Shown one piece after another: positions 13,282 to 41,574 of a stretch of DNA of 64,000 bases. The stretch is from assembly GCA_029245865.1 (NCBI GenBank), contig JAQWOM010000055.1, positions 1-64,000 of the forward strand. Direction: 5' to 3'. The position numbers and the translations under genes were made by a program. Below the pieces are notes generated by a model, which was not told where the DNA came from, searched no databases, and saw only the letters and a program-made list of their open reading frames with translations. This DNA is from Planctomycetota bacterium (lineage in GTDB: Bacteria; Planctomycetota; B15-G4). Each line of letters opens with the position of its first letter. Positions within the stretch are counted from its first letter, which is position 1.

Positions 13282-14433
13282 ATGCACTCGAAAAAGCCTT
13301 GCCTGCTCGTGTTCGAAGACGGTGAAGTCCACAAGGGCACTCACTTTGGTTACGACGGGGAATCCTGCGGCGAACTCGTCTTCAACACCGCCATGTCCGG
13401 TTACCAGGAGGTTCTCACCGACCCCAGTTACCGTGGACAAATTGTGCTGATGACCTATCCGCTCATCGGCAACACAGGCATCAACGAGGAGGACATGGAG
13501 TCTGATCGTTGCTACCTCGACGGCTTCGTGATCAAAGAGCTGTCGCCCATCGTCAGCAATCAGCGCGCCACCACAGATCTTTCAAGCTGGCTGAACGAGC
13601 GCGGCATTGTCGGCCTGCAAGGTGTCGACACACGCGCCATTGTCCGCAAAGTGCGCACGGTGGGTTCCATGCGAGCCATCTTGTCGAGCCTCGATGACGA
13701 CCCGGAGTCGTTGCATAAGAAGGTCCTCAGCTGGCCTGGACTGCACGGCATCGACGTGGTGCAGACCGTCACGCGCGAGGCTCCGGAACACTGGTCTGCC
13801 GGTCTCGACCAGCCCTTCTTGCCGGAGATGGCTCGAGTTGGCGACACCCGCGCTCGCCTCGCAGTGCTCGACTTCGGAGTGAAGCACAACATGCTCCGCG
13901 GCCTTCACGAAGTCGGATTCGACGTCACCGTCTTCCCGGCCAGCACCACGACCGCCGAAATCCAGGAAACCGCGCCTGACTGTCTCTTTTTGAGCAACGG
14001 CCCGGGCGACCCGGAACCTCTGCAGTATGCGGTCCAGACCATCCGCGAACTGACCGACAGCGGCTTGCCGACTTTTGGCATCTGCCTCGGGCACCAGCTC
14101 ACGGCACTCGCGCTGGGGGGCAAGACAGCCAAGATGAAGTTTGGTCACCACGGGGCCAATCAGCCCGTCATCGATCTGACGACCGAACGAACAGAGATCA
14201 CTTCGCAGAACCACAGCTACGTGGTCGATGCCTCGACACTGGATCTCGGCAAGGTGGAGATCACGCACGAGAACCTCAATGACCGCACTGTCGAAGGTCT
14301 GCGCCACAAAGACCTTCCGCTGTTCACTGTTCAATATCACCCCGAAGCAGCACCTGGACCGCGTGACGCCTTCTACCTCTTCCGGCGCTTCATGGATCTG
14401 GTGCAGGAACATGGCGGAGCAAGCGTGTCGTGA
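13282..14433 (+). CDS. carA: Carbamoyl-phosphate synthase, small (glutaminase) subunit
   Basis: A 383-residue protein with the CarA-specific N-terminal domain (VFEDG...FNTAMSGYQEVLTDPSY) and a C-terminal class I glutamine amidotransferase domain. The catalytic triad is visible as C268 (FGICLGHQ), H353 and E355 (QYHPEA). It releases ammonia from glutamine for the large subunit CarB, supplying carbamoyl phosphate to pyrimidine and arginine synthesis. carB does not follow; instead the stop codon overlaps by four bases (GTGA) with a deoxyhypusine-synthase-like gene. It starts 77 bases after tsaD and may be on the same transcript. Confidence 0.97.
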   Translation: MHSKKPCLLVFEDGEVHKGTHFGYDGESCGELVFNTAMSGYQEVLTDPSYRGQIVLMTYPLIGNTGINEEDMESDRCYLDGFVIKELSPIVSNQRATTDLSSWLNERGIVGLQGVDTRAIVRKVRTVGSMRAILSSLDDDPESLHKKVLSWPGLHGIDVVQTVTREAPEHWSAGLDQPFLPEMARVGDTRARLAVLDFGVKHNMLRGLHEVGFDVTVFPASTTTAEIQETAPDCLFLSNGPGDPEPLQYAVQTIRELTDSGLPTFGICLGHQLTALALGGKTAKMKFGHHGANQPVIDLTTERTEITSQNHSYVVDASTLDLGKVEITHENLNDRTVEGLRHKDLPLFTVQYHPEAAPGPRDAFYLFRRFMDLVQEHGGASVS

Positions 14434-15584
14434 GCAGGGCGTACCCCTGCGGAACGCCCGAACCTGACGACAAGGGCGTACCGGACACCGTCTCGAACGC
14501 CACGCCCGCCGAACAGACAGGCGCGGACACGAGCCTGCGTCACACCCTCCACGACGGCCACCAGGACGGCCTCAAGCCATTGCACTCACTCGATCTGGCG
14601 CAGGCTGGATCTGTGGATTCCCTCGTACGCGGTATGGGCGGCACCAGCTTCGGAGGCCGCAGCCTGGGTCAAGCGGCCGACGTGCTCGAAGCCATGGTCA
14701 CCGACACCTCCTGTCACGTGGTGCTGACCCTCTCGGGGGCCATGACCATCGCCAAGCAAGGCCTTGTCATCTGCGAGATGATCGAACGCGGCTGGGTTCA
14801 GGCCATCGTGTCGACAGGCGCACTCATGGCCCACGGACTCGTGGAGTCGCTCGGCATGCAGCACTTTGCCCACGACCCCAAAGTGCCCGACGCCACCCTG
14901 TTCGAGCGCGGCTACAACCGCGTCTACGACACGATCGAGCTCGAAAAGAACCTCGACGACACCGAACGCATCATGGCCGAGATCTTGTCTTCTCTCGATC
15001 CAGACCAGCCGACAAGCAGTCACGAGATCAACGCAACGCTCGGCCGATGGCTCATCGAGAACACGAAAGGCCGCGGCCCGCTCAAGTCGGCAGCCCAGCA
15101 TGGCGTGCCTGTTTACGTCCCCGCGTTCACCGACAGCGAGTTGGGTCTCGACTTCGCCACCAACAACCATGCGCGTCGAGATCGCGGCGAAAAACCGCTG
15201 CAGTTCGATCCGTTTCGCGACCTCGATCACTTCCATCAGAAGTTCACGGCCGCTTCTGTGCACGGAATTTTCACCGTCGGAGGCGGTGTTCCTCGCAACT
15301 GGGCACAGCAAGTGGCCCCGTACATCGACATCCTCGGCAAACGCGTGCCCAGTATGGCCCGCGAGCCGCTCCGCTACCGATATGCCGTCCGCTTATGCCC
15401 CGAACCCGTGCACTGGGGAGGCCTCTCAGGCTGTGATTACAGCGAAAGCGTCAGCTGGGGAAAGATCGTGCCCGCTGCCGAAGGTGGTCGCTGGGCAGAA
15501 GTGAAGGCCGATGCGACGATTGCCTGGCCACTCGTGGTGCGCGCAGTCATGGAGCGCCTCGAAGGTTCACAACCTTCGAAATAG
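14430..15584 (+). CDS. Deoxyhypusine synthase-like protein (possible homospermidine synthase)
   Basis: A 384-residue protein of the deoxyhypusine synthase family. The catalytic lysine that forms the enzyme-spermidine imine in eukaryotic DHS is conserved as K345 in VSWGKI. The NAD-binding STGALMAHG, the FTDSELGLD segment and the GGGVPRNWAQQ segment are also present. The first ~60 residues are extra, low in conservation and probably flexible. Bacteria lack eIF5A, and bacterial members are known to include enzymes that make homospermidine from polyamines or have unassigned roles; which applies here cannot be decided by eye. It starts with GTG inside the end of carA, so translation is probably coupled. 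A tandem repeat follows its stop. Confidence 0.9.
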   Translation: MSRAYPCGTPEPDDKGVPDTVSNATPAEQTGADTSLRHTLHDGHQDGLKPLHSLDLAQAGSVDSLVRGMGGTSFGGRSLGQAADVLEAMVTDTSCHVVLTLSGAMTIAKQGLVICEMIERGWVQAIVSTGALMAHGLVESLGMQHFAHDPKVPDATLFERGYNRVYDTIELEKNLDDTERIMAEILSSLDPDQPTSSHEINATLGRWLIENTKGRGPLKSAAQHGVPVYVPAFTDSELGLDFATNNHARRDRGEKPLQFDPFRDLDHFHQKFTAASVHGIFTVGGGVPRNWAQQVAPYIDILGKRVPSMAREPLRYRYAVRLCPEPVHWGGLSGCDYSESVSWGKIVPAAEGGRWAEVKADATIAWPLVVRAVMERLEGSQPSK

Positions 15585-17148: not shown

Positions 17149-19593
17149 CTACAGCATGCTCAGCGGATCCACATCCACAATCACACGAACGTGGCGAACT
17201 GGCTGAGTCCGTCCGTGGAGAGCCGCCAGGAGCGCCTCAACCCCTTGATCGTCGGCGCACTTGGCCACGAGATGCACGCGATGTTGCTTGTTGATCCGTG
17301 GAATCGGCGCCGGTGCCGGCCCGAGGATCTGCACGTCCAGAGGCTGCTCGGGAATCACTAAATCGGCGATTGCCTTGCGTTTTCGGCCCGTCAGAGCTGG
17401 CTTGGCGGCCGCAGCCGGGGGTGTGTGGGCCTCGGGAAACAGCAACGGCCCCGTGCCCGCCACAGCCGGCCCAGGCTTCTTCTCCTCGGCCCGGTCGACC
17501 TCTGCAGGCGGCCCTTCGCCGGCATCGGGCTGCCCGCTGGCAACACGCAGCACCGAACTCAGCTCTCCCGCGCGCTTGCTCACCGCATGTTCGTCCGGTC
17601 CCTGCACCACGACACGCAGCAGGCGACCAAAGGGGGGGTAGCCGAGAGCCTCCCGGTCCCTGAGCTCTCTCTGAGCAAAGGCCGTGTAGTCCTGCGCCAC
17701 TCCCGTTTTGATGGCGGGGTGCTGAAGGTCATAGGCCTGAACCACGACGCGCCCCCCCTTCGGCCCTCGCCCGGTGCGCCCGGTGACCTGTGCAAGCAAC
17801 TGAAACGTTCTCTCGGATGCTCGATAGTCCGGCAAGAACAGAGCGGAGTCCGCGCACAGCACACCGACCAGCAGGGCATTCGGAAAATCGAGTCCCTTCG
17901 CGATCATCTGCGTACCCACCAGCACGTCGATCTTCCCCGCTCCAAAAGCATCGAGCACTTTCTCGTGTGCGCCACGACCGGACATGGTGTCACTGTCCAT
18001 GCGTGCGACTTGCGCAAAAGGGAAAGCCCGGCGAACTTCCTCTTCGACCTTCTCCGTACCAAAGCCGAGTGGTGCAAGCGGTTGGTCGCAAGTTCGGCAT
18101 TTGTCTGGTGGCGGTTCTTCGTGACCACAGTAGTGGCACAGGATGCGGTGTGCGCGTTGATGCAGCGTCATCGACACATCACAGTCGGGGCAACGCAATG
18201 ACTGGCGGCATGTACGACACAGCAGCACAGGCGCCCATCCGCGCCTGTTAAGGAACAAGATGATCTGACCTTGGCGCGCCAGAACATCGTCCATGGCGGC
18301 TCGCAGCGCGTCGCTCAGATAAGCGAAGCGCTTCCGTCGCTCTTCAATGGTCAGATCGACCATGTGCACTTCGGGAGTGCGCCCTCCGGCGACTCTCTCT
18401 CCCAGCACGAGCCGCTCGTAAGTTCCTTCTTCGGCCTGCTGATAAGCCTCGAGCGAGGGCGTTGCCGTCCCGAACAGCACCAGAGCGCCCGTTTCTGCGG
18501 CACGCTGCACGGCCACATCCCGTGCGTGATAACGCGGAACATTCTGCTGCTTGAAGCTCGATTCATGCTCTTCGTCCAGGACGATCAGCCCCAGCTTCGG
18601 GACCGGCGCAAACACGGCCGAGCGAGCGCCCACCACCACGTCTGCCTCACCGCGCAAAATAGATCGCCATTGATCGTGACGCTCCGCGTCCGTGAGATGG
18701 CTGTGCAACACTGCGACGCGATCGAAACGTTCGCGGAACCGTCGTGTCGTTTGAGGAGTCAGGCTGATTTCAGGCACCAGCACGATGCCCTGTCGACCGG
18801 ACTTCACCACCTGATCGAGCACTTGCAGATAGACCTCGGTCTTGCCGCTTCCCGTCACTCCGTGCAAAAGAATCGGCTTCGGTGCTGATCGCGAAACCCC
18901 ATCAAGCGAGAGTGCTTCGAGAATCCGATCGTGCACGCGTTCCTGGTCAGCTGTCATCTGCAAGGAAGGTCGACGTTCAACATGTCCACTGCCAAACGGG
19001 TCGTAACGTGCAGCGACGCGCTCGAGTGTCACGTGGCCTAGCTTCGCAAGACTTTGAATCGGCGAACGACTGACATGCGCCAGGTTCATCAACTCGCGCG
19101 TCGCCAGGACTCCTCCGCGATCCGCGAGGATGCGAAGAACGCGCGCTTGTTTCTCCTGACGGCTCTGCAGGCCATCAACAACGGGACGGGCAGCTCGGGG
19201 CTCCATCGCCAGATGAACTTCTTCGATCATGCGCCCACCACGGCCATCCCGCGCGGCTCGAGGCAGGGCGGCGTCCAGGGCCTCTCCCACCGAGCAACCA
19301 AGGCGGTGGGCCATCCACTCACCCAGCGCAAGAATGTCCGAGGTTGCCAGCGGTTTGTCGTCCACCAGCCGCTGCAATGCTTTCAGCTTCACGCCAGGTG
19401 GGGCCGGGCGGCGCTCGACACGCACCACCATGGCCGACAGACTTCGCCCTCCGAATGGAACCATCGCTCGCACGCCGGGCACCACTTTGCCTGCAAGCCT
19501 TTCGGGCACCTCGTAATCGAACAAGCCGCCCACGGGCACAGGAGGCGCCACGGACGCGAGCAGCGGCGACTGAGGCGTCCCGTCTGGTGTCAC
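17149..19593 (-). CDS. priA: Primosomal protein N' (replication restart helicase PriA)
   Basis: An 814-residue superfamily 2 DNA helicase. Order of parts: 3' DNA-binding domain with PVGGLFDYEVP, winged helix, Walker A GVTGSGKT (about residues 245-252), DEEH box, a zinc-binding insertion with two C-x-x-C...C-x-x-C clusters, and helicase motifs V-VI with QVTGRTGRG. The C-terminal domain contains an unusual ~60-residue Pro/Ala/Lys-rich insertion before the conserved end. PriA reloads the replisome at stalled forks. I chose GTG at 19593: it lies just after the upstream MazG-like stop and GAGG is about 9 bases before it. The ATG at 19671 would overlap that gene by 67 bases and add 26 unlike residues. 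Confidence 0.93.
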   Translation of the reverse strand: MTPDGTPQSPLLASVAPPVPVGGLFDYEVPERLAGKVVPGVRAMVPFGGRSLSAMVVRVERRPAPPGVKLKALQRLVDDKPLATSDILALGEWMAHRLGCSVGEALDAALPRAARDGRGGRMIEEVHLAMEPRAARPVVDGLQSRQEKQARVLRILADRGGVLATRELMNLAHVSRSPIQSLAKLGHVTLERVAARYDPFGSGHVERRPSLQMTADQERVHDRILEALSLDGVSRSAPKPILLHGVTGSGKTEVYLQVLDQVVKSGRQGIVLVPEISLTPQTTRRFRERFDRVAVLHSHLTDAERHDQWRSILRGEADVVVGARSAVFAPVPKLGLIVLDEEHESSFKQQNVPRYHARDVAVQRAAETGALVLFGTATPSLEAYQQAEEGTYERLVLGERVAGGRTPEVHMVDLTIEERRKRFAYLSDALRAAMDDVLARQGQIILFLNRRGWAPVLLCRTCRQSLRCPDCDVSMTLHQRAHRILCHYCGHEEPPPDKCRTCDQPLAPLGFGTEKVEEEVRRAFPFAQVARMDSDTMSGRGAHEKVLDAFGAGKIDVLVGTQMIAKGLDFPNALLVGVLCADSALFLPDYRASERTFQLLAQVTGRTGRGPKGGRVVVQAYDLQHPAIKTGVAQDYTAFAQRELRDREALGYPPFGRLLRVVVQGPDEHAVSKRAGELSSVLRVASGQPDAGEGPPAEVDRAEEKKPGPAVAGTGPLLFPEAHTPPAAAAKPALTGRKRKAIADLVIPEQPLDVQILGPAPAPIPRINKQHRVHLVAKCADDQGVEALLAALHGRTQPVRHVRVIVDVDPLSML

Positions 19594-19604
19594 GGGCGAG
19601 CGCC

Positions 19605-19925
19605 TCAGGATCCCCGAGCCGTGCCGTGCGTCGGCGTTGGCTCGGCGCAAGCACACGGCGTCGACGAGCAACGCGGGCAGCCCTCTGCATATTTGTCAGC
19701 AGCCACTCTCTCGAGATCGATTTGGTGCATCGAAGCCAATGTCGACAGCCAGGCGAAGACATCGGCAAACTCGCCTTCGAGACCCGCCCGGTCACCCCGG
19801 CGCAACGCACGTGACAACTCGCCCACTTCTTCGGCGAACCACATGTAAGTGCCTGCGGTCCCGCGCGCCGCATCTTTGTCCCCATAAATGTCTTCGATCA
19901 AGCGCTGGAACTCTGAAACTTTCAC
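19605..19925 (-). CDS. MazG-like nucleotide pyrophosphohydrolase
   Basis: A 106-residue all-alpha NTP pyrophosphatase of the MazG type. The metal-binding pattern E-E-V-G-E near residues 32-36 and E-x-x-D near 52-55 (EFADVFAWL) is intact. Single-domain members of this size hydrolyse noncanonical or surplus NTPs to NMP and pyrophosphate; the preferred nucleotide is unknown. The C-terminal tail has an unusual cysteine cluster (CPRCSSTPCAC), which may bind zinc or be unstructured. The GTG start overlaps the stop of the upstream SpoIIE-like gene by four bases. The stop is 11 bases before priA, so the three genes are probably one operon. Confidence 0.85.
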   Translation of the reverse strand: MKVSEFQRLIEDIYGDKDAARGTAGTYMWFAEEVGELSRALRRGDRAGLEGEFADVFAWLSTLASMHQIDLERVAADKYAEGCPRCSSTPCACAEPTPTHGTARGS

Positions 19926-21586
19926 GCTTCACGTCCAATCGAAAGCATGGTGACCCCCGGCCCGAGTTCTGCTTGCCCACGGAACTTGCGCAACGTCGCA
20001 CCCATCCGTTTCATCATCAACTCGACATCTTTTTCGGATTCACGTCGCACCAAGGCGGCAAAGCGCTCTTCGCCAAGCACCTGCCCCTCTCCACCAGACA
20101 GACTCGAAAGGCCCGAAGAGTAAAGAATGGCCTTGTCGCCAGGCTCCAGAACCGTCTGCGCCACCTTCAACGTCTGATCAAAAACGGGGCCTTCGTCAAA
20201 GCCCATCGCAATGCCTTCGCTCAACACGGTTTCGATCCCGGCGATGCCAGCGTGTTGATGCAGCAGAGGAGGGTGGCCTGCATTGGCAATGGCCATCTCA
20301 CCCGTGTCGAGATCGATCACGGCCAACAGCGCCGTGACATAGAGACCCTGTGGAAGATCTTCTGAGATGCGTGCATTCACATCGCGCAGGACAGCGCCTG
20401 GATCCGATTCATGTTCCGCGATCACGCGTAAGGTCGAACGCGTCATCGCCGTGACCAGTGCGGCCGGCACACCTGTTCCAGAGGCTTCCGCAAGCAGCAA
20501 CCCTCGCTTCCGGCCTGGCATCTTCAAGATGTCGTAGGTGCTGCCAGCAGGAGTTCCCGAGGAATCGTGCAAGCCAGCAAACGCCCATCCCCGAAGCTTC
20601 GGAAGGCTGCGCGGAAAGAGACTTCCAGTGACCTCTGCAGCAACTTCGAGCTCTCGGCGCGATGCCGCCGCCGCTCGCTGGCTGGCCTGCGCCTCCGCCA
20701 AGGAGCGTGTCATCTGGTCGAAAGTCCGTGCGAGTTGGCCGACCTCATCACTGCTGTGAGGGCGTGTGTGGTGATCCAGATCACCAGCAGCCACGGCTCG
20801 AATGTCATCTTGAAGCATCCTCATGGGCCGCGTCATCCGGCGCCCCAGGACAAACGCGATCACCGCTCCGAGCAGCACGAAGGCACAGCCCGCATACGCA
20901 ACCTTCCAGGAGAACCGGCTGATGGCTTCTTGGATCGCTGCCGCTTCGAGGTGAACAGCGACTTCGCCTGCCTGGGCTCCATGCTGATCCATGACAGGGT
21001 AGCTGCCTCGGATGACATGCCATCTGTCGGGCCCCACGGACAGGAAGCCTTCCTGCACGGCTCCTTCACCCAGGGTGACTGTGGTCACGCCTTTCGCGGG
21101 TGCAAAGCTCGCTTCTCGCGCACGGCCCTCTGCATCGATGTAGGACGCCGCGGTAAGAGACGATCTCTGGCCCCCTGTCCAGCGAAAGAGTTCGACGGCC
21201 ACAACACGCGTTCCCGAACCAAGAAAGCGCGCAAACCGTCCCCGGTTCCACAAGACTTGAGCCTTGCGCTCGACGTCCGTCTCATAGGCCCGGAAGGCAA
21301 AAGGAGTCATCTCGTTCACTCGAGCCTGGATGTCCTCCTGACTGAGTCCCTGGTCGACCGTGCCGTAGTTAGAAGTCCACGCGTCGAGATCAGCCTGTGC
21401 CGCTGTCCGGGCCGCATCGGCCGCCGCGTACTGCACTTCAAAACGCACGGTGTCCTCGACAGATCTCACCACCGCGAAACCAAAGATGAGCATGAACACG
21501 GCCACGATCGTCGAAATGATCAACGACATCTTGGCCGCGAGCGGCACGCCCTTCATACGCCGGACTTCAGGGGCCCCGGGGGCCAT
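19922..21586 (-). CDS. Membrane HAMP / SpoIIE-type phosphatase-fold protein lacking metal ligands
   Basis: A 554-residue protein. Helix 1 spans about 21-41, a periplasmic sensor region about 42-228, helix 2 about 229-248, HAMP about 249-305 (RRMTRPMRML...DEVGQLARTFD), then a PP2C/SpoIIE-fold domain about 315-550. In active RsbU/SpoIIE phosphatases four acidic motifs bind manganese: GGD, DVSGHG, TDG and DD-x-T. Here they read AGS (347-349), EASGTG (367-372), SSG (490-492) and PGVT (543-546). Three aspartates are lost and one is replaced by Glu, while the fold-defining NAGHPP is intact. I infer a pseudophosphatase acting as a sensor or scaffold. No anti-sigma or STAS partner is adjacent. It leads the mazG-like/priA operon. 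Confidence 0.88.
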   Translation of the reverse strand: MAPGAPEVRRMKGVPLAAKMSLIISTIVAVFMLIFGFAVVRSVEDTVRFEVQYAAADAARTAAQADLDAWTSNYGTVDQGLSQEDIQARVNEMTPFAFRAYETDVERKAQVLWNRGRFARFLGSGTRVVAVELFRWTGGQRSSLTAASYIDAEGRAREASFAPAKGVTTVTLGEGAVQEGFLSVGPDRWHVIRGSYPVMDQHGAQAGEVAVHLEAAAIQEAISRFSWKVAYAGCAFVLLGAVIAFVLGRRMTRPMRMLQDDIRAVAAGDLDHHTRPHSSDEVGQLARTFDQMTRSLAEAQASQRAAAASRRELEVAAEVTGSLFPRSLPKLRGWAFAGLHDSSGTPAGSTYDILKMPGRKRGLLLAEASGTGVPAALVTAMTRSTLRVIAEHESDPGAVLRDVNARISEDLPQGLYVTALLAVIDLDTGEMAIANAGHPPLLHQHAGIAGIETVLSEGIAMGFDEGPVFDQTLKVAQTVLEPGDKAILYSSGLSSLSGGEGQVLGEERFAALVRRESEKDVELMMKRMGATLRKFRGQAELGPGVTMLSIGREA

Positions 21587-21683: not shown

Positions 21684-22289
21684 TCAGTCCTCGGCAGTAC
21701 GGAGAACTTGGGCCGCAGCGACCACGTATCGAGCCCCGGACACGATCGTGAGCACAAAAGAGGCCCAGACGAAAACGTAGGCCAGGCCCAAGGAGAGCTG
21801 CCAGAGCCAGGGGACGCTTGCACCCAGCGCGAGATCCACCGTGCGTACAAGAAACACGGCGGGAATGGCGATGCACTGCATGATCATCTTGAGCTTTCCG
21901 TCCCAGCGGGCAGGGAATGCCACGCCTCGGGCCTCGATATAGCCCCTCAGCCCATTCACGAGAAACTCTCGGGCCACGATCAGGACAACCATCCAGACCG
22001 GAATGAACTCTCTCGCCCACTGCGCCGAGGCAAGAAAGATGAAGGCGCCGCAGACAATGACCTTGTCCACAACAGGGTCTGCGATGCGGCCAAAGTCGGA
22101 CAGCTGGCCCAGCTTACGGGCGTAGTAACCGTCCAAAGCATCGGTGGCCACGGCCAGAATGAAGATGCCTCCGGCCAATGCAGGAGCCCAGGCCTCAGGA
22201 CCCGAACAAGTATCCGTCCAGATCAACACCGCAAACATGATCAGTGCGATGCCGAACCGGCCCATGGTGATTTTGTTTGGAAGGTTCAC
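21684..22289 (-). CDS. pgsA: CDP-diacylglycerol--glycerol-3-phosphate 3-phosphatidyltransferase
   Basis: A 201-residue integral membrane enzyme of the CDP-alcohol phosphatidyltransferase family. The complete family motif D-x2-D-G-x2-A-R-x8-G-x3-D-x3-D is seen from DALDGYYAR to DPVVDK at about residues 50-76. Four to six hydrophobic helices surround it. It makes phosphatidylglycerol phosphate, the first committed step to anionic phospholipids. The start GTG overlaps the rimO stop by four bases; ftsK-rimO-pgsA is a common bacterial gene order. PgsA is preferred over PssA on the basis of its context and the start NLPNKITMGR. Confidence 0.93.
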   Translation of the reverse strand: MNLPNKITMGRFGIALIMFAVLIWTDTCSGPEAWAPALAGGIFILAVATDALDGYYARKLGQLSDFGRIADPVVDKVIVCGAFIFLASAQWAREFIPVWMVVLIVAREFLVNGLRGYIEARGVAFPARWDGKLKMIMQCIAIPAVFLVRTVDLALGASVPWLWQLSLGLAYVFVWASFVLTIVSGARYVVAAAQVLRTAED

Positions 22290-23722
22290 TCGTTCAGCAT
22301 CCCAACCACGTCATAGCCTTTAATACCTGAAATCTTTACCTCTCTGAAATCGCCGGGCTGCACGCCCTCGGCCTGTGCCGCCGTGAGCGAAACCAGCACT
22401 TGTCCGTCAATCTCTGGAGCATCTCGACGACTGCGGGCCACCGCCAGGGAGCTGTCCAGGCCCGCCAAGGTGTCGACACCATCGATTAGAACCTCTTCCA
22501 CCTTACCGACGCGCTGCTTGTTCGAAGAACGGAGCACGTCGCGCTGGAAGCGCATCACCTGTTCGCGCCGGTCTTCTGCGGCTCGGCGACTTGGACGCCC
22601 CCCGAGATTGACGCCTTCGGTGCCTTCCTCGGGCGAATAGGCAAAGCAGCCCACCCTGTCGAAGCGAATCTCCTCGAGCAAATCCATCAAATGGCCAAAT
22701 CGCCGCTCGGTCTCTCCTGGAAAGCCCACCAGAATGGTCGTGCGCAGCGTGAGATCCGGAATCGCTTCGCGCAGTTCAGCAACGACCTGACGGATGCGCG
22801 CAGGAGACGTGCCGCGCCGCATCGCGCGCAGCACAGCCTCATCACCGTGCTGGACCGGCATATCCAGGTAGGGCAAGACATTGGGCACCTCGGCCATGGT
22901 CCGGGCGAGGTGGTCGTCCATGGTGGCGGGATGTGCATAAAGCACGCGGATCCATTTTAGCTCGTCGATCTTTCCTAGCTCGGAAAGCAACTCCGGAAGG
23001 CCGTAGCCCTTGCCCAGGTCTTTCCCGTAGTCGGTGCTGTCTTCCGCAACCAGACTGATTTCACGAGTGCCCAGTTGTGCCAGCGCACTCGCTTCTTCGA
23101 CCAGCACATCCAGCGGCTTGCTCTGAAGCTTTCCTCTTATCTTTGGAATCGCGCAAAACGCACAGATGTGGTTGCAGCCTTCTCCCAGTCGCAAGTAAGC
23201 CGTGTGCACGGGAGTCAGTAGCGAACGGCCGAGATCTGCGGAACCTCCCTTCGAGCCTCCGCTCGCCGTACGCGACCCTGACCGACTGGCTCCGCCTCCA
23301 GAAAAAGTCACCGGGCCCGTGGACGCAGGTCCGTCGTGGATTGCACGGCCGATCACAGCATCGACAACGGAAGGTACGCCCGAGTAATCGCTCAGCGGCA
23401 AAAACGCATCGACTTCGGGAATCTCAGCGGCGAGTTGCTTCTCATGCAATTCCACCAGACAGCCTGTCACTACAAGTCCGCGAATGACTCCGGAGCGCTT
23501 GAGTTCGGCGTAGCGCAGGATGGTGTCGATACTCTCCTGCCGAGCTTCGTCGATGAACCCGCAGGTGTTGACGACCACCAGGTCACTGTCCTCCGGCTCG
23601 GTCATGAGACCGATTCCGGCACGGCCCAGGTGCCCGGCCATGACCTCGCTGTCTACGAGGTTCTTCGAACAGCCCAGAGAGACGAGGCAGACAGAGCGGT
23701 CGAGGGTGGGAGTGAGAGCCAT
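22286..23722 (-). CDS. rimO: Ribosomal protein S12 methylthiotransferase
   Basis: A 478-residue radical-SAM methylthiotransferase. The N-terminal MTTase domain has its three cluster cysteines at C18 (SLGCSKN), C54 (NTCGF) and C88 (TGCL). The radical SAM cluster motif is C183-x3-C187-x2-C190 (CNHICAFC), and a TRAM domain closes the protein after about residue 410. SLGCSKNLVDSE is the RimO rather than MiaB signature. It methylthiolates a conserved Asp of ribosomal protein S12. A Gly/Ser/Arg-rich insertion at about 134-167, between the MTTase and radical-SAM domains, makes it some 35 residues longer than usual. pgsA follows with a four-base overlap. Confidence 0.95.
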   Translation of the reverse strand: MALTPTLDRSVCLVSLGCSKNLVDSEVMAGHLGRAGIGLMTEPEDSDLVVVNTCGFIDEARQESIDTILRYAELKRSGVIRGLVVTGCLVELHEKQLAAEIPEVDAFLPLSDYSGVPSVVDAVIGRAIHDGPASTGPVTFSGGGASRSGSRTASGGSKGGSADLGRSLLTPVHTAYLRLGEGCNHICAFCAIPKIRGKLQSKPLDVLVEEASALAQLGTREISLVAEDSTDYGKDLGKGYGLPELLSELGKIDELKWIRVLYAHPATMDDHLARTMAEVPNVLPYLDMPVQHGDEAVLRAMRRGTSPARIRQVVAELREAIPDLTLRTTILVGFPGETERRFGHLMDLLEEIRFDRVGCFAYSPEEGTEGVNLGGRPSRRAAEDRREQVMRFQRDVLRSSNKQRVGKVEEVLIDGVDTLAGLDSSLAVARSRRDAPEIDGQVLVSLTAAQAEGVQPGDFREVKISGIKGYDVVGMLNE

Positions 23723-37428: not shown

Positions 37429-40400
37429 ATGCCGCCCACACCCGACCATTCCGCTGATCGCACGCCGTCATGTGCGGAAGACGCGTTCAGTCGCTATTTG
37501 CGCCTGTGCGACGAAGGTCACGAACTGGACTTCGAGCAATATCGCCGGGAATTCCCGCGGTTCTCTGATGAACTGCTCGAACTCGCGACCGATTGGCAGC
37601 GCATGGCAGGTTTTGTCGATGGGCTGGGAGAGGGCTTCGACAGCGACTCAAACTCTCAGGCCTCTCAGAGCCGGGCGCACTCAAGCCCGAGTGAGCTTTC
37701 CGCCACCTTCGAATTGGATGTCAGCGGCCGGAGCATCGCGCCCCCGGGGACAGCCGACATCTCCCACATTCTCGAGCGGCTTTCTGCCGACGCGAGCAAC
37801 AAACGTTACTCACCCCGAGGCGAGATCGCGCGCGGCGGCATGGGTGTCATTCAGCGCATGTGGGACTCAGACCTCCGTCGCAATCTGGCCATGAAAGTGA
37901 TGCTGGGCAGAAAACAGCGCAAGGGGCCTCGCGGAAGTGCGACCGAGAGCCGGCACATCGGCCGCTTTCTAGAAGAAGCTCAGATCACGGGGCAGCTAGA
38001 TCACCCTGGCATCGTTCCTGTCCATGAGCTCGGCCTCAATGGTGCCGGCCAGCTCTACTTCACGATGCGCCTCGTACGCGGCCGCGATCTACGCGCCATC
38101 TTCGAACTCGTACACGACGAACGCGAGGGCTGGACTGTCGCACGCGCGCTGGGCGTCATTCAGCGCGTATGTGAAGCGATGGCCTACGCACACAGCAAGC
38201 GCGTGATCCATCGTGACATCAAGCCCTCCAACATCATGGTCGGACGTTTCGGGGAGGTGTACGTGATGGATTGGGGCCTGGCAAAAGTGACCGGCCGCAA
38301 AGACATGCACGACCTGCGACCCGACCTTGAAGGCACCGAGGATGCCGACCTCATTCATGCCGACATGCAAGAAGACGGAGAGCCCTCCCGCAGTCCACTG
38401 CAAACCATGGACGGCACTGTGGTCGGAACGCCCTCCTACATGTCACCTGAGCAGGCCCAGGGCAAAGGCGACCTCATAGGCCCGCAATCTGACATCTATT
38501 CCGTCGGAGCGCTTCTCTACCAGCTGCTCTCCGGACAGATGCCCTACGTGAACGAGGGCCAGTCGATGTCGCCCTTTGCCCTGCTCAGGGCCGTTCGCAA
38601 GGGGCCGCCCCGCTCGATTCTTCAGATCAATCGCCGCGTCCCCCCCGCTCTTGTCGCCATCTGCGAAAAGGCCATGGCTCGTGAAATCGGAGATCGTTAC
38701 TCCAGCATGGGGGACATGGCAGATGAGTTACGCGCCTTCCTCGAAGGACGTGTCGTACGCACTTACGAAACCGGAGCTCTTGCAGAAGCGCGCAAGTGGG
38801 TCGTGCGCAACAAGGGCTCTGCTGCCATTCTCGGTATTGCCTTTTTCGCGCTCGCAGTGCTGATCACGAATCTGTTCCAGACCAACGACAGTCTCCGTCA
38901 AAGCAACCTGGCCAAGACTCTCAGCGAACAAGAGGCCAAGGAAGCGCAAGCAAGGTTGCAGGACAGAACCGAAGAGCTCGAGGTGGCCGTTGACGAGGCG
39001 CGACGCGAGTCACGTCGCGCCGATGATGAGGCACTCGAAGCGCGCTATCGCGGTTATGTCACCAGCATCGCGGCAACCGACGGCGCGCTGCGCTTCCACG
39101 AACTCGCCGAAGCCAAGTCGAGCCTGCGGGAAGCACCACCCAGTCTCCGCGACTGGGAATGGAGGCACCTTCTGCTGAAGGCAGACCCGAGCCTGGCAAC
39201 TCTCGAAGGGCATGTCACACCTGTGAACTCCGTGGTCTTCGGGCCCAGCGGAAAACTGCTGGCCACGGCCTCGGCCGACGGCACGGTGAATGTCTGGGAC
39301 ATCTCGTCACGCTCCAGGCTCAACAAACTGGTCCATCAGGACGACATCGTCACGTCCGTGGCGATTCACCCCAATGGGCGCACCCTGGCCTGCGCAGGGA
39401 GTGACGGCAAGGTCTCCCTGTGGGACGCCAGAAGCGGAAAGAAGCTCGACGACCTCTGGCAAGGCCGCGAGGAGGCTTCTGCCCGGAACGCAATCACCGC
39501 TCTTGTCTTCAGTCCAAATGGAAAGCGTCTCTTCGCGAGCACCACGGGCCGGCAAGTCTGTTCGTGGAACGTGGACAACGCAGAGTTCCGTGTTTTTCCT
39601 GGCATGCACGACCTCTTTATCGGCTCGCTGGCCATCTCTCCGGATGGCACTCGCCTCGCCTCGGGTTCTGCTGACCGCACTGTGGCCATCTGGGATGCAG
39701 CAACCGGCGAGCAGCAGCAGCTTCTCTTCGACCACACCGACTCTGTTCTTGCCGTGTCCTTTCATCCACTCGAGGGCTCACCGTACGTCGCCACTGCATC
39801 TGCGGATGGACTTGTACGGCTCTTCGAAAGCACAGAAGGCACGTTGCTCGTGACATACGAAGGGCACGCGGGCCCTGTGAATTCCGTGAGCTTCAGTCCG
39901 GACGGCTCAGAACTTCTCACCGGCTCCGACGACGGAACGCTTCGCCGCTGGAATACTTTTTCGGGAGAAGAGTTGTCGGGTTTGAGCGGGCACGCGGACG
40001 CCGTGTCCTCGGTGGCCTTCAGCCCCGACGGCCTGATCATGGCCAGCGGCTCTGCTGATACGAAGGTCAAGCTCTGGGACCGAGCCTATGAAGATGGCTC
40101 AACCAGCATGCGCGAACACACCGATGTCGTGCATTCGCTGGCCGTCTCGCCCGACGGCCTGCGCATCGTCTCCGCCGCCTGGAATGCGCGAGTGCATCTC
40201 TGGGAATCAGACACACTTCTCTCGCTCACGGCACTTGACCTTCCTCTTGAAGGCACGGCCATGGTCGCCTTCAGCCCAGACGGCGACCAGATTGCGGCGG
40301 GCATGATCAGTGCTGACCGCGACCAGCCCAACCCGATTTACTTCTTTGATTCCTCATCGCACGACATGCTCATGGACCTGCCGATCGTTGCAAGCGGGCA

Positions 40401-41574
40401 TTCGAGTCGCATCACGGCGCTGGCCTACAGCCCCAACGGCCATCTCGTGGCATCGGCTTCGTATGACGGCAAAGTGTGTCTTTGGAACAGCGAGACGGGC
40501 TCTCTCGTCCAGACGTTGAATGGACACGACGGCCGAGTGCACTGCCTGGCCTTTCAGCCCGGCGGGAATCTTCTCGCCAGTGGCGGCTACGACGAAACCG
40601 TGCGTCTCTGGAATTACAAATCCGGCGAGGAACTGCAGCAATTCAATGACCAGAAAGGCGCGGTGAATTCGCTTGCCTGGACACCGGATGGCAGCGGCCT
40701 GGCCTCGTCGCATGGCGAGCTGGTCTGTTTCCGTGAACTCGAGCGACAAGATTCGAAACGCATCATGCGCGGCCATCAGGACGACGTCACTGGCCTTAGT
40801 TTTCATCCGAACGGCCAGCGACTGGCCAGTTCGTCTCTGGACGGAACGATCCGACTGTGGGATCAGAACCGCAGCACCCACCTCCTGACACTGCGCGCCG
40901 GGCAACCATGCTCTGCCATCGCCTTTGATGCAGAGGGCGACCGGCTCTATGCGGCACTCGACACCTCCATCAAGATTTTTGAAACATCGCCCCCGGCGGT
41001 GACCTTCAGCCTTCGACACGACCGCATGCTCGCGGCCGAGGATGCCCGTCAACTGTTTCAAGCTCGCCTCGACCGCCATGTTGCACCTTCGGCCGTGATC
41101 GAGAGCCTGCTGCAAGACACGTTGCTGAATCCGGTTGTGCGGGCAGAAGCACTGCGCCTCGCTCGCAATTTTGGGACGCACCCTCTTCGGCTTGCTCAGA
41201 CGGCCTGGGTCGTCATCCGCTCACCCAGTGCGAGCCAACTTGCTTACCTCGAAGCCTTTCGGCTGGTCCGCGCCGCCGACACCATGTCACCAGGCCAGGC
41301 TCAGATTTTGAGCATTCTGGGAGCCGCCCATTATCGGATGGGCGACAACGCCTCGGCCATCTCCGCCCTGCAGCAGGCCCACGCCTTGCACACGACAGAG
41401 GAAGCTCGACCTCTGAGCTGGGACCTTCTTTTTCTCGCCATGGCAAACTGGCAGCGTGGCAATTCGGATCTTGCCGAAGGTTTTCTTCGCCTGGCTCGCG
41501 AATCGAGCCGCAGTGACAACCGGCATGAAACCCGGGCCCTCGTACGCGAGGCCTCCGAACTCCTGGGGCAGTAG
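37429..41574 (+). CDS. Transmembrane Ser/Thr protein kinase with 14 WD40 repeats
   Basis: A 1381-residue protein. The kinase domain (~128-430) has the glycine loop GEIARGGMGV, lysine K156 (AMKV), HRD at 261-263, D281-W-G and the activation segment GTPSYMSPEQ, so it should be active. The DWG variant is common in planctomycete kinases. One transmembrane helix (~462-483) and a coiled coil follow. Then I count 14 WD40-type repeats (~590-1190), enough for two seven-bladed propellers outside the membrane. A helical, possibly TPR-like end closes the protein. The N-terminal ~120 residues, with a Ser-rich stretch, are cytoplasmic. It may transduce an envelope signal or ligand. Targets are unknown. Confidence 0.93.
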   Translation: MPPTPDHSADRTPSCAEDAFSRYLRLCDEGHELDFEQYRREFPRFSDELLELATDWQRMAGFVDGLGEGFDSDSNSQASQSRAHSSPSELSATFELDVSGRSIAPPGTADISHILERLSADASNKRYSPRGEIARGGMGVIQRMWDSDLRRNLAMKVMLGRKQRKGPRGSATESRHIGRFLEEAQITGQLDHPGIVPVHELGLNGAGQLYFTMRLVRGRDLRAIFELVHDEREGWTVARALGVIQRVCEAMAYAHSKRVIHRDIKPSNIMVGRFGEVYVMDWGLAKVTGRKDMHDLRPDLEGTEDADLIHADMQEDGEPSRSPLQTMDGTVVGTPSYMSPEQAQGKGDLIGPQSDIYSVGALLYQLLSGQMPYVNEGQSMSPFALLRAVRKGPPRSILQINRRVPPALVAICEKAMAREIGDRYSSMGDMADELRAFLEGRVVRTYETGALAEARKWVVRNKGSAAILGIAFFALAVLITNLFQTNDSLRQSNLAKTLSEQEAKEAQARLQDRTEELEVAVDEARRESRRADDEALEARYRGYVTSIAATDGALRFHELAEAKSSLREAPPSLRDWEWRHLLLKADPSLATLEGHVTPVNSVVFGPSGKLLATASADGTVNVWDISSRSRLNKLVHQDDIVTSVAIHPNGRTLACAGSDGKVSLWDARSGKKLDDLWQGREEASARNAITALVFSPNGKRLFASTTGRQVCSWNVDNAEFRVFPGMHDLFIGSLAISPDGTRLASGSADRTVAIWDAATGEQQQLLFDHTDSVLAVSFHPLEGSPYVATASADGLVRLFESTEGTLLVTYEGHAGPVNSVSFSPDGSELLTGSDDGTLRRWNTFSGEELSGLSGHADAVSSVAFSPDGLIMASGSADTKVKLWDRAYEDGSTSMREHTDVVHSLAVSPDGLRIVSAAWNARVHLWESDTLLSLTALDLPLEGTAMVAFSPDGDQIAAGMISADRDQPNPIYFFDSSSHDMLMDLPIVASGHSSRITALAYSPNGHLVASASYDGKVCLWNSETGSLVQTLNGHDGRVHCLAFQPGGNLLASGGYDETVRLWNYKSGEELQQFNDQKGAVNSLAWTPDGSGLASSHGELVCFRELERQDSKRIMRGHQDDVTGLSFHPNGQRLASSSLDGTIRLWDQNRSTHLLTLRAGQPCSAIAFDAEGDRLYAALDTSIKIFETSPPAVTFSLRHDRMLAAEDARQLFQARLDRHVAPSAVIESLLQDTLLNPVVRAEALRLARNFGTHPLRLAQTAWVVIRSPSASQLAYLEAFRLVRAADTMSPGQAQILSILGAAHYRMGDNASAISALQQAHALHTTEEARPLSWDLLFLAMANWQRGNSDLAEGFLRLARESSRSDNRHETRALVREASELLGQ

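Follow-up and report, generated by a model that had tools for sequence, protein, structure and literature searches.

What may a membrane receptor still do when its phosphatase domain seems no longer able to hold catalytic metals? The question is raised by a gene located at positions 19922 to 21586 (minus strand) of the window, i.e. the entire stretch of 64,000 nucleotides of planctomycete DNA considered here. Identified by Pfam matches and by its orthologues in the same order, it is an intact open reading frame, coding for a protein of 554 residues. The source genome amounts to 3.33 Mb in 57 contigs. Its 16S fragment comprises an exact PLA46 target (GGATTAGGCATGCAAGTC), a mark of Planctomycetota.

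From its N-terminus the protein is organized as a transmembrane helix, an extracytoplasmic domain, a second transmembrane helix, a HAMP domain and a SpoIIE/PPM domain; all these features are coded by the minus strand. The membrane helices were located by hydropathy: the first one (residues ~14-40; 21467 to 21547) belongs to a helix spanning residues 16-63 in the AF2 model, the second one (residues ~225-250; 20837 to 20914) to a helix spanning residues 216-266. Between them lies a putative sensor domain (residues ~41-224; 20915 to 21466), outlined by the secondary structure of the model: one long helix, some short ones and seven strands. Pfam gave no match there and no family was found; the predicted topology is PAS/Cache-like, which is only a resemblance. 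The HAMP domain (residues 246-297; 20696 to 20851; PF00672, 48.4 bits) was matched in all 15 aligned members. It had been proposed that the protein keeps a sensor-HAMP input, and both the sequence and the AF2 model agree with this view. The output domain is delimited by Pfam at residues 360-539 (19970 to 20509; PF07228, 112.3 bits for a cut-off of 25), and its fold begins upstream of this boundary, near residue 325. Mean pLDDT is 82 and pTM 0.48 for the whole model, while most of the phosphatase domain falls between 83 and 95. These values, and a Foldseek probability of 1.00 to RssB, SiaA and SpoIIE, identify a PPM beta-sandwich.

The active site is another matter. According to the original prediction, all four acidic motifs of the domain were changed, and this proved correct. 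The protein was aligned from end to end (350 bits) with an HMM made from 48 canonical homologues; posterior confidence took its top value at four motifs, and the value ‘9’ at the final one. The register being unambiguous at all motifs, a misalignment as the source of the losses is ruled out. Canonical VGGDYYD reads PAGSTYD, ADVSGKG reads AEASGTG, YTDG reads YSSG and DDIT reads PGVT; SAGHN pairs with NAGHP, so that the NAGH core is kept, as had also been claimed. The alignment places S349 (20540 to 20542) at the aspartate of GGD, E367 (20486 to 20488) at that of DVSG, S491 (20114 to 20116) at that of TDG and P543 (19958 to 19960) at the first aspartate of DDxT, the second one being replaced by G544. 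We take D628 of SpoIIE to stand at DVSG, D746 at TDG and D795 at the first aspartate of DDxT. In SpoIIE, D628, D746 and D795, with the carbonyl of G629, are the metal ligands (PMC5468089; PMC8080068), and the three aspartates are required for metal (PMC5468089). The aspartate ligands of an active SpoIIE/RsbU-type phosphatase are absent here. Might other acids have replaced them in place? This is the case at one of the four positions, that of E367, where most relatives have A, S, G or T, and it is not at the other three. D352, the second aspartate of GGDYYD, is retained and is 97% conserved among the degenerate relatives described below. A loop, GIAMGFDEGPVFD (residues 458-470; 20177 to 20215), is common to active and inactive members.

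The original prediction asked for a survey of these losses in related organisms, and they turned out to be conserved in one clade. Homologues were gathered from the phylum and 81 of them were compared. Proteins were termed degenerate when two or more of the four aspartates were lost (n=32), and canonical when all four were kept (n=49); the latter comprise the source genome's own GAF-type phosphatase, used as the outgroup. The degenerate proteins come from 11 sampled families, designated here by the codes given to families of the phylum (f1, f2, f3, f10, f19, f27, f32, f36, f49, f63, f71). Among these 32 proteins the aspartate is lost from TDG in 31 (kept in one), from DVSG in 30 (kept in two) and from the first position of DDxT in 28 (kept in four), while that of GGD is kept in 19. 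Three copies from f3 retain DD. No member retains three or more, and the window protein is among those with none, its family being furthest along in ligand decay. Within the order, orthologues are found in 13 of 14 genomes (725-790 bits); none was found in the fourteenth, which is 84% complete and consists of 900 contigs. The search of these genomes for a second, canonical HAMP-SpoIIE copy gave none, the next matches after the orthologue being GAF-type phosphatases or more degenerate copies. Outside the collected set, a search of genome contigs retrieved a single remote homologue, in Tritonibacter (26%), and plasmid records gave only partial matches (25-33%).

Was catalysis lost one time, or repeatedly? 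In a tree built under a mixture model from an alignment stripped of the motif columns, one branch (92/99) separates the full set of 32 degenerate proteins from the 49 canonical ones; the degenerate label has a single origin in 91% of bootstrap trees, to be compared with the 25 changes needed when labels are shuffled. Convergent losses in several lineages, drawn together by long-branch attraction, would account for the fact that substitutions vary between families and that the tree does not resolve the backbone of the clade. A RimO tree made for these genomes, broadly congruent, may also be called in favour of convergence: it requires three changes of label, two of them forced by starred branches, and places canonical copies of f24 and f81 among degenerate genomes. 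However, the f24 copy lies outside the shared locus next to rimO and pgsA, and the RimO branch of f81 is very long. A single origin of the ligand losses is therefore likely, albeit not proven, and we hold repeated loss to be unlikely. Catalysis was apparently lost one time, in place, from an active phosphatase, and a stepwise decay followed.

A domain that departs so much from its relatives could also be a mere ruin, a decaying pseudogene or an error of assembly. The window copy, without any of the four aspartates and without the second aspartate of DDxT, is indeed one of the clade's most degraded members. Yet the frames of the 32 copies are intact, the same locus is found in many families, and neither frameshifts nor stops were seen among the orthologues of the order. 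The ratio dN/dS is 0.10 for a pair from the same genus and 0.27-0.34 when three pairs at greater distance are compared, values comparable to those of pgsA, mazG and priA or a little higher; with the phosphatase domain alone, the closest pair gives ~0.16. Such purifying selection, together with intact frames, led us to reject the pseudogene, which is scarcely credible. Ligand loss is thus ancient, and has been kept under selection in at least 11 bacterial families. Active relatives have 57 positions conserved at 90% or more; the degenerate clade retains 24 of them, retains 15 in part and has lost 18. Three of the four catalytic aspartates are among the 18, with K371 and E495 nearby, the aspartate of GGD being partly kept. 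Non-catalytic positions are conserved, in particular G372, R383 and N404, in the helices equivalent to the PP2C switch, as well as NAGH, D352 and the loop GIALGFDKGP.F. Mean column information is 2.36 bits in the degenerate domain vs 2.81 bits in the active one, and with this lower conservation part of the domain may be drifting. A last objection is that some weak or altered metal-dependent activity persists through E367, D352 or other acids. The acidic nature of E367, the constancy of D352, the aspartate of GGD kept in many relatives and the DD of the three f3 copies speak for it. Serine and proline at the equivalents of D746 and D795, with no acid in place, speak against it, as does the variability of position 367. 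Furthermore, the activity of PPM enzymes requires two or three metals, and the single-metal proteins TAB1 and PHLPP2 are inactive (PMC12002173). A single metal could still be held by E367 and D352, as in these two proteins, but residual catalysis is very improbable. The view that the domain is a pseudophosphatase, as judged from sequence, is well supported by losses extending over the whole clade and by purifying selection.

Comparison with known systems helps to see what such a protein might do. In the order given by Foldseek, RssB from Pseudomonas aeruginosa comes first, followed by the RsbU domain of Rv1364c, SiaA and SpoIIE being further down; sequence profiles match SiaA (6k4e, the best sequence match in the PDB) and RssB. 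RssB serves as precedent. Like the window protein it has a SpoIIE-type PPM domain, and that of Escherichia coli works by binding: its active-site residues are missing, and it binds sigma-S, which it hands over to ClpXP (PMC7226468; PMC12143880; PMC5468089). It is a pseudophosphatase adaptor that retains the logic of the PP2C switch and of the helical linker (PMC5468089; PMC7226468; PMC12143880). There are differences, however. RssB is cytosolic, with a receiver (REC) input at its N-terminus, a domain absent from the window protein, where transmembrane helices flank a sensor followed by HAMP; the E. coli protein has lost the C-terminal strand while the window protein has the full fold, and RssB from P. 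aeruginosa is still active. SiaA, also from P. aeruginosa, shares the membrane sensor-HAMP-PP2C architecture. It acts in the SiaABC pathway as an active phosphatase (PMC7647112), whereas the ligands are lost in the window protein, which scores 57.5 of the 700 bits asked for by the NCBIfam equivalog model of SiaA (NF038263), with the HAMP region as the best stretch. RsbU, SpoIIE and RsbP have the PF07228 fold and, in the same way, an N-terminal input, HAMP or other, connected by a helical linker; unlike the window protein, with E, S and P at D628, D746 and D795, they bind manganese and dephosphorylate STAS proteins. TAB1 and PHLPP2 share the PPM fold and an inactivity that the sequence of the window protein would suggest for it too, and PHLPP2 lost its activity in an ancestor, this loss being then conserved (PMC12002173). 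Both are eukaryotic, with an unrelated set of domains, and each binds one metal ion (PMC12002173).

Taken together, this makes it probable that the protein is a transmembrane receptor with a pseudophosphatase output, which would signal through the binding and release of a partner in the cytoplasm rather than by dephosphorylating it. HAMP and other sensor domains are known to be joined to PPM dimers by coiled-coil linkers (PMC12143880). In the same manner the extracytoplasmic domain and HAMP would move the helices entering the PPM fold, and the motion of these switch helices may alter the binding of the partner. Signalling would proceed by binding and release because the PPM fold of this protein is presumably unable to hold catalytic metals. 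Binding or titration as the mode of action, as the original prediction had it, is an extrapolation from RssB. We infer the absence of catalysis and an output by binding, and likewise the nature of the partner.

Upstream on the same strand are a pgsA-like gene for a CDP-alcohol phosphatidyltransferase (21684 to 22289; PF01066), found beside active and inactive copies, and a rimO-like gene for a radical SAM methylthiotransferase (22286 to 23722), identified by its domain match and by synteny. With pgsA only 97 nt upstream, and no promoter-like site found, it is not evident that the gene stands at the head of an operon, as had been proposed. Downstream, still on the minus strand, comes a gene for a MazG-like pyrophosphohydrolase of 106 residues (19605 to 19925; PF03819), with a GTG start overlapping the stop of the pseudophosphatase gene by 4 nt (GTGA). 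Its EEVGE...EFAD motif and its catalytic acids are intact. The C-terminus of this MazG-like protein also carries a GCPRC...PCAC motif, resembling a small metal-binding tail. Then follows priA (17149 to 19671), recognized by its PriA domains and by the conserved order, its true start being probably downstream of the listed TTG. Families f1 and f2 show the order rimO-pgsA-[pseudophosphatase]-mazG-priA whenever their contigs extend far enough; so do f32 and f63, elsewhere in the phylum, and f27 (G037); f3 has it from pgsA onwards, rimO being absent from the flanks. Many canonical copies also stand downstream of rimO-pgsA (e.g. L108, L129, L139, L144, L147, L151), and since both kinds are found there, active and inactive genes appear to have diverged in place as orthologues. 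They differ on the downstream side: mazG follows directly in 23 of the 32 degenerate copies vs none of 48 canonical ones (some of which are near contig ends). The distance from the stop codon to its start is no more than 60 nt in 22 of these and 305 nt in one more, and the 4-nt GTGA overlap recurs in L044, L045, L046 and L115. In 12 canonical genomes having mazG, neither priA nor HAMP-SpoIIE was detected in its flanks of roughly 1.5 kb. Degenerate copies of f10, f36 and f49 have no adjacent mazG, those of f36 and f49 being directly followed by priA. Because all its carriers belong to one clade, the association with mazG is a single event, without independent replication. The proposed link with mazG and priA is thus real as an arrangement of genes, widely conserved and, in the sampled genomes, confined to the degenerate clade; as a functional link, a single evolutionary event does not prove it.

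Two candidates may be considered for the partner, an inherited STAS protein, which we narrowly favour, and the co-translated MazG, the main alternative. In the former case, the domain would hold a substrate of the ancestral type, a STAS anti-sigma antagonist, and compete for it with the active SpoIIE phosphatase of the genome. On contig C26 of the source genome, a STAS-PilZ protein of 246 residues (L054:1123-1863, minus strand; PilZ part judged by eye) is divergent from an active-type GAF-SpoIIE phosphatase (L001:388-2085, plus strand). In most genomes of the order, judging by coordinates, a STAS gene and a GAF-type SpoIIE are separated by no more than about 2 kb. The source genome also codes for one RsbW-like HATPase well above cut-off (L051) and for one other STAS domain above cut-off, within a larger frame. 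As a counterpoint, the STAS gene is unlinked to the pseudophosphatase gene. In the MazG alternative, the domain, driven by HAMP, would hold and release MazG at the membrane, and signals from the envelope would gate the cleaning of the nucleotide pool. The proximity of mazG, its absence beside canonical copies and the integrity of the MazG catalytic acids speak for this; but the degenerate copies of f10, f36 and f49, as well as the extra copies L034, L122 and L123, manage without an adjacent mazG, the linkage arose with one clade, and operon neighbours such as priA or rimO are not required to interact. A MazG regulator is therefore possible but rather doubtful. The bolder scenario, where the phosphatase at rimO-pgsA lost catalysis once and was rewired as a receptor directly controlling a translationally coupled MazG, is more doubtful still; were it true, the outcome would be a house-cleaning enzyme gated by a transmembrane signal, in a device built from a dead phosphatase.

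Pseudophosphatases of the PPM family are already known, and Bradshaw et al. (PMC5468089) have argued, with RssB as the example, that PPM proteins can retain their allosteric switch after catalysis is lost. The membrane-receptor form is apparently undescribed: the open-access literature provided no publication on a degenerate HAMP-SpoIIE family. The clade offers a larger natural case, with orthologues of both kinds, active and inactive, sharing a locus, staged losses and a membrane-receptor input, where the conversion of a receptor phosphatase into a binding-only signal transducer can be tested directly. It is also a warning for annotation, as PF07228 alone miscalls degenerate genes as phosphatases.

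Some further copies and genes deserve mention. Second degenerate HAMP-SpoIIE copies, even more divergent, are found at L122:5959-7632 (G011) and L123:1617-3284 (G008), and group with the priA-linked copy of G047 (98/97). Another second copy, L034:6016-7659 (G005), stands away from the rimO-pgsA-mazG-priA locus and lacks the GFDKGPVFD loop, with GSVGPAGFD instead, which may reflect a further functional shift. Elsewhere in the window, the plus strand codes for a Ser/Thr protein kinase of 1381 residues (37429-41574), with weak TolB-like repeat matches at its C-terminus, and for a deoxyhypusine synthase homologue (14430-15584) with a score under the curated cut-off of every NCBIfam model for it.
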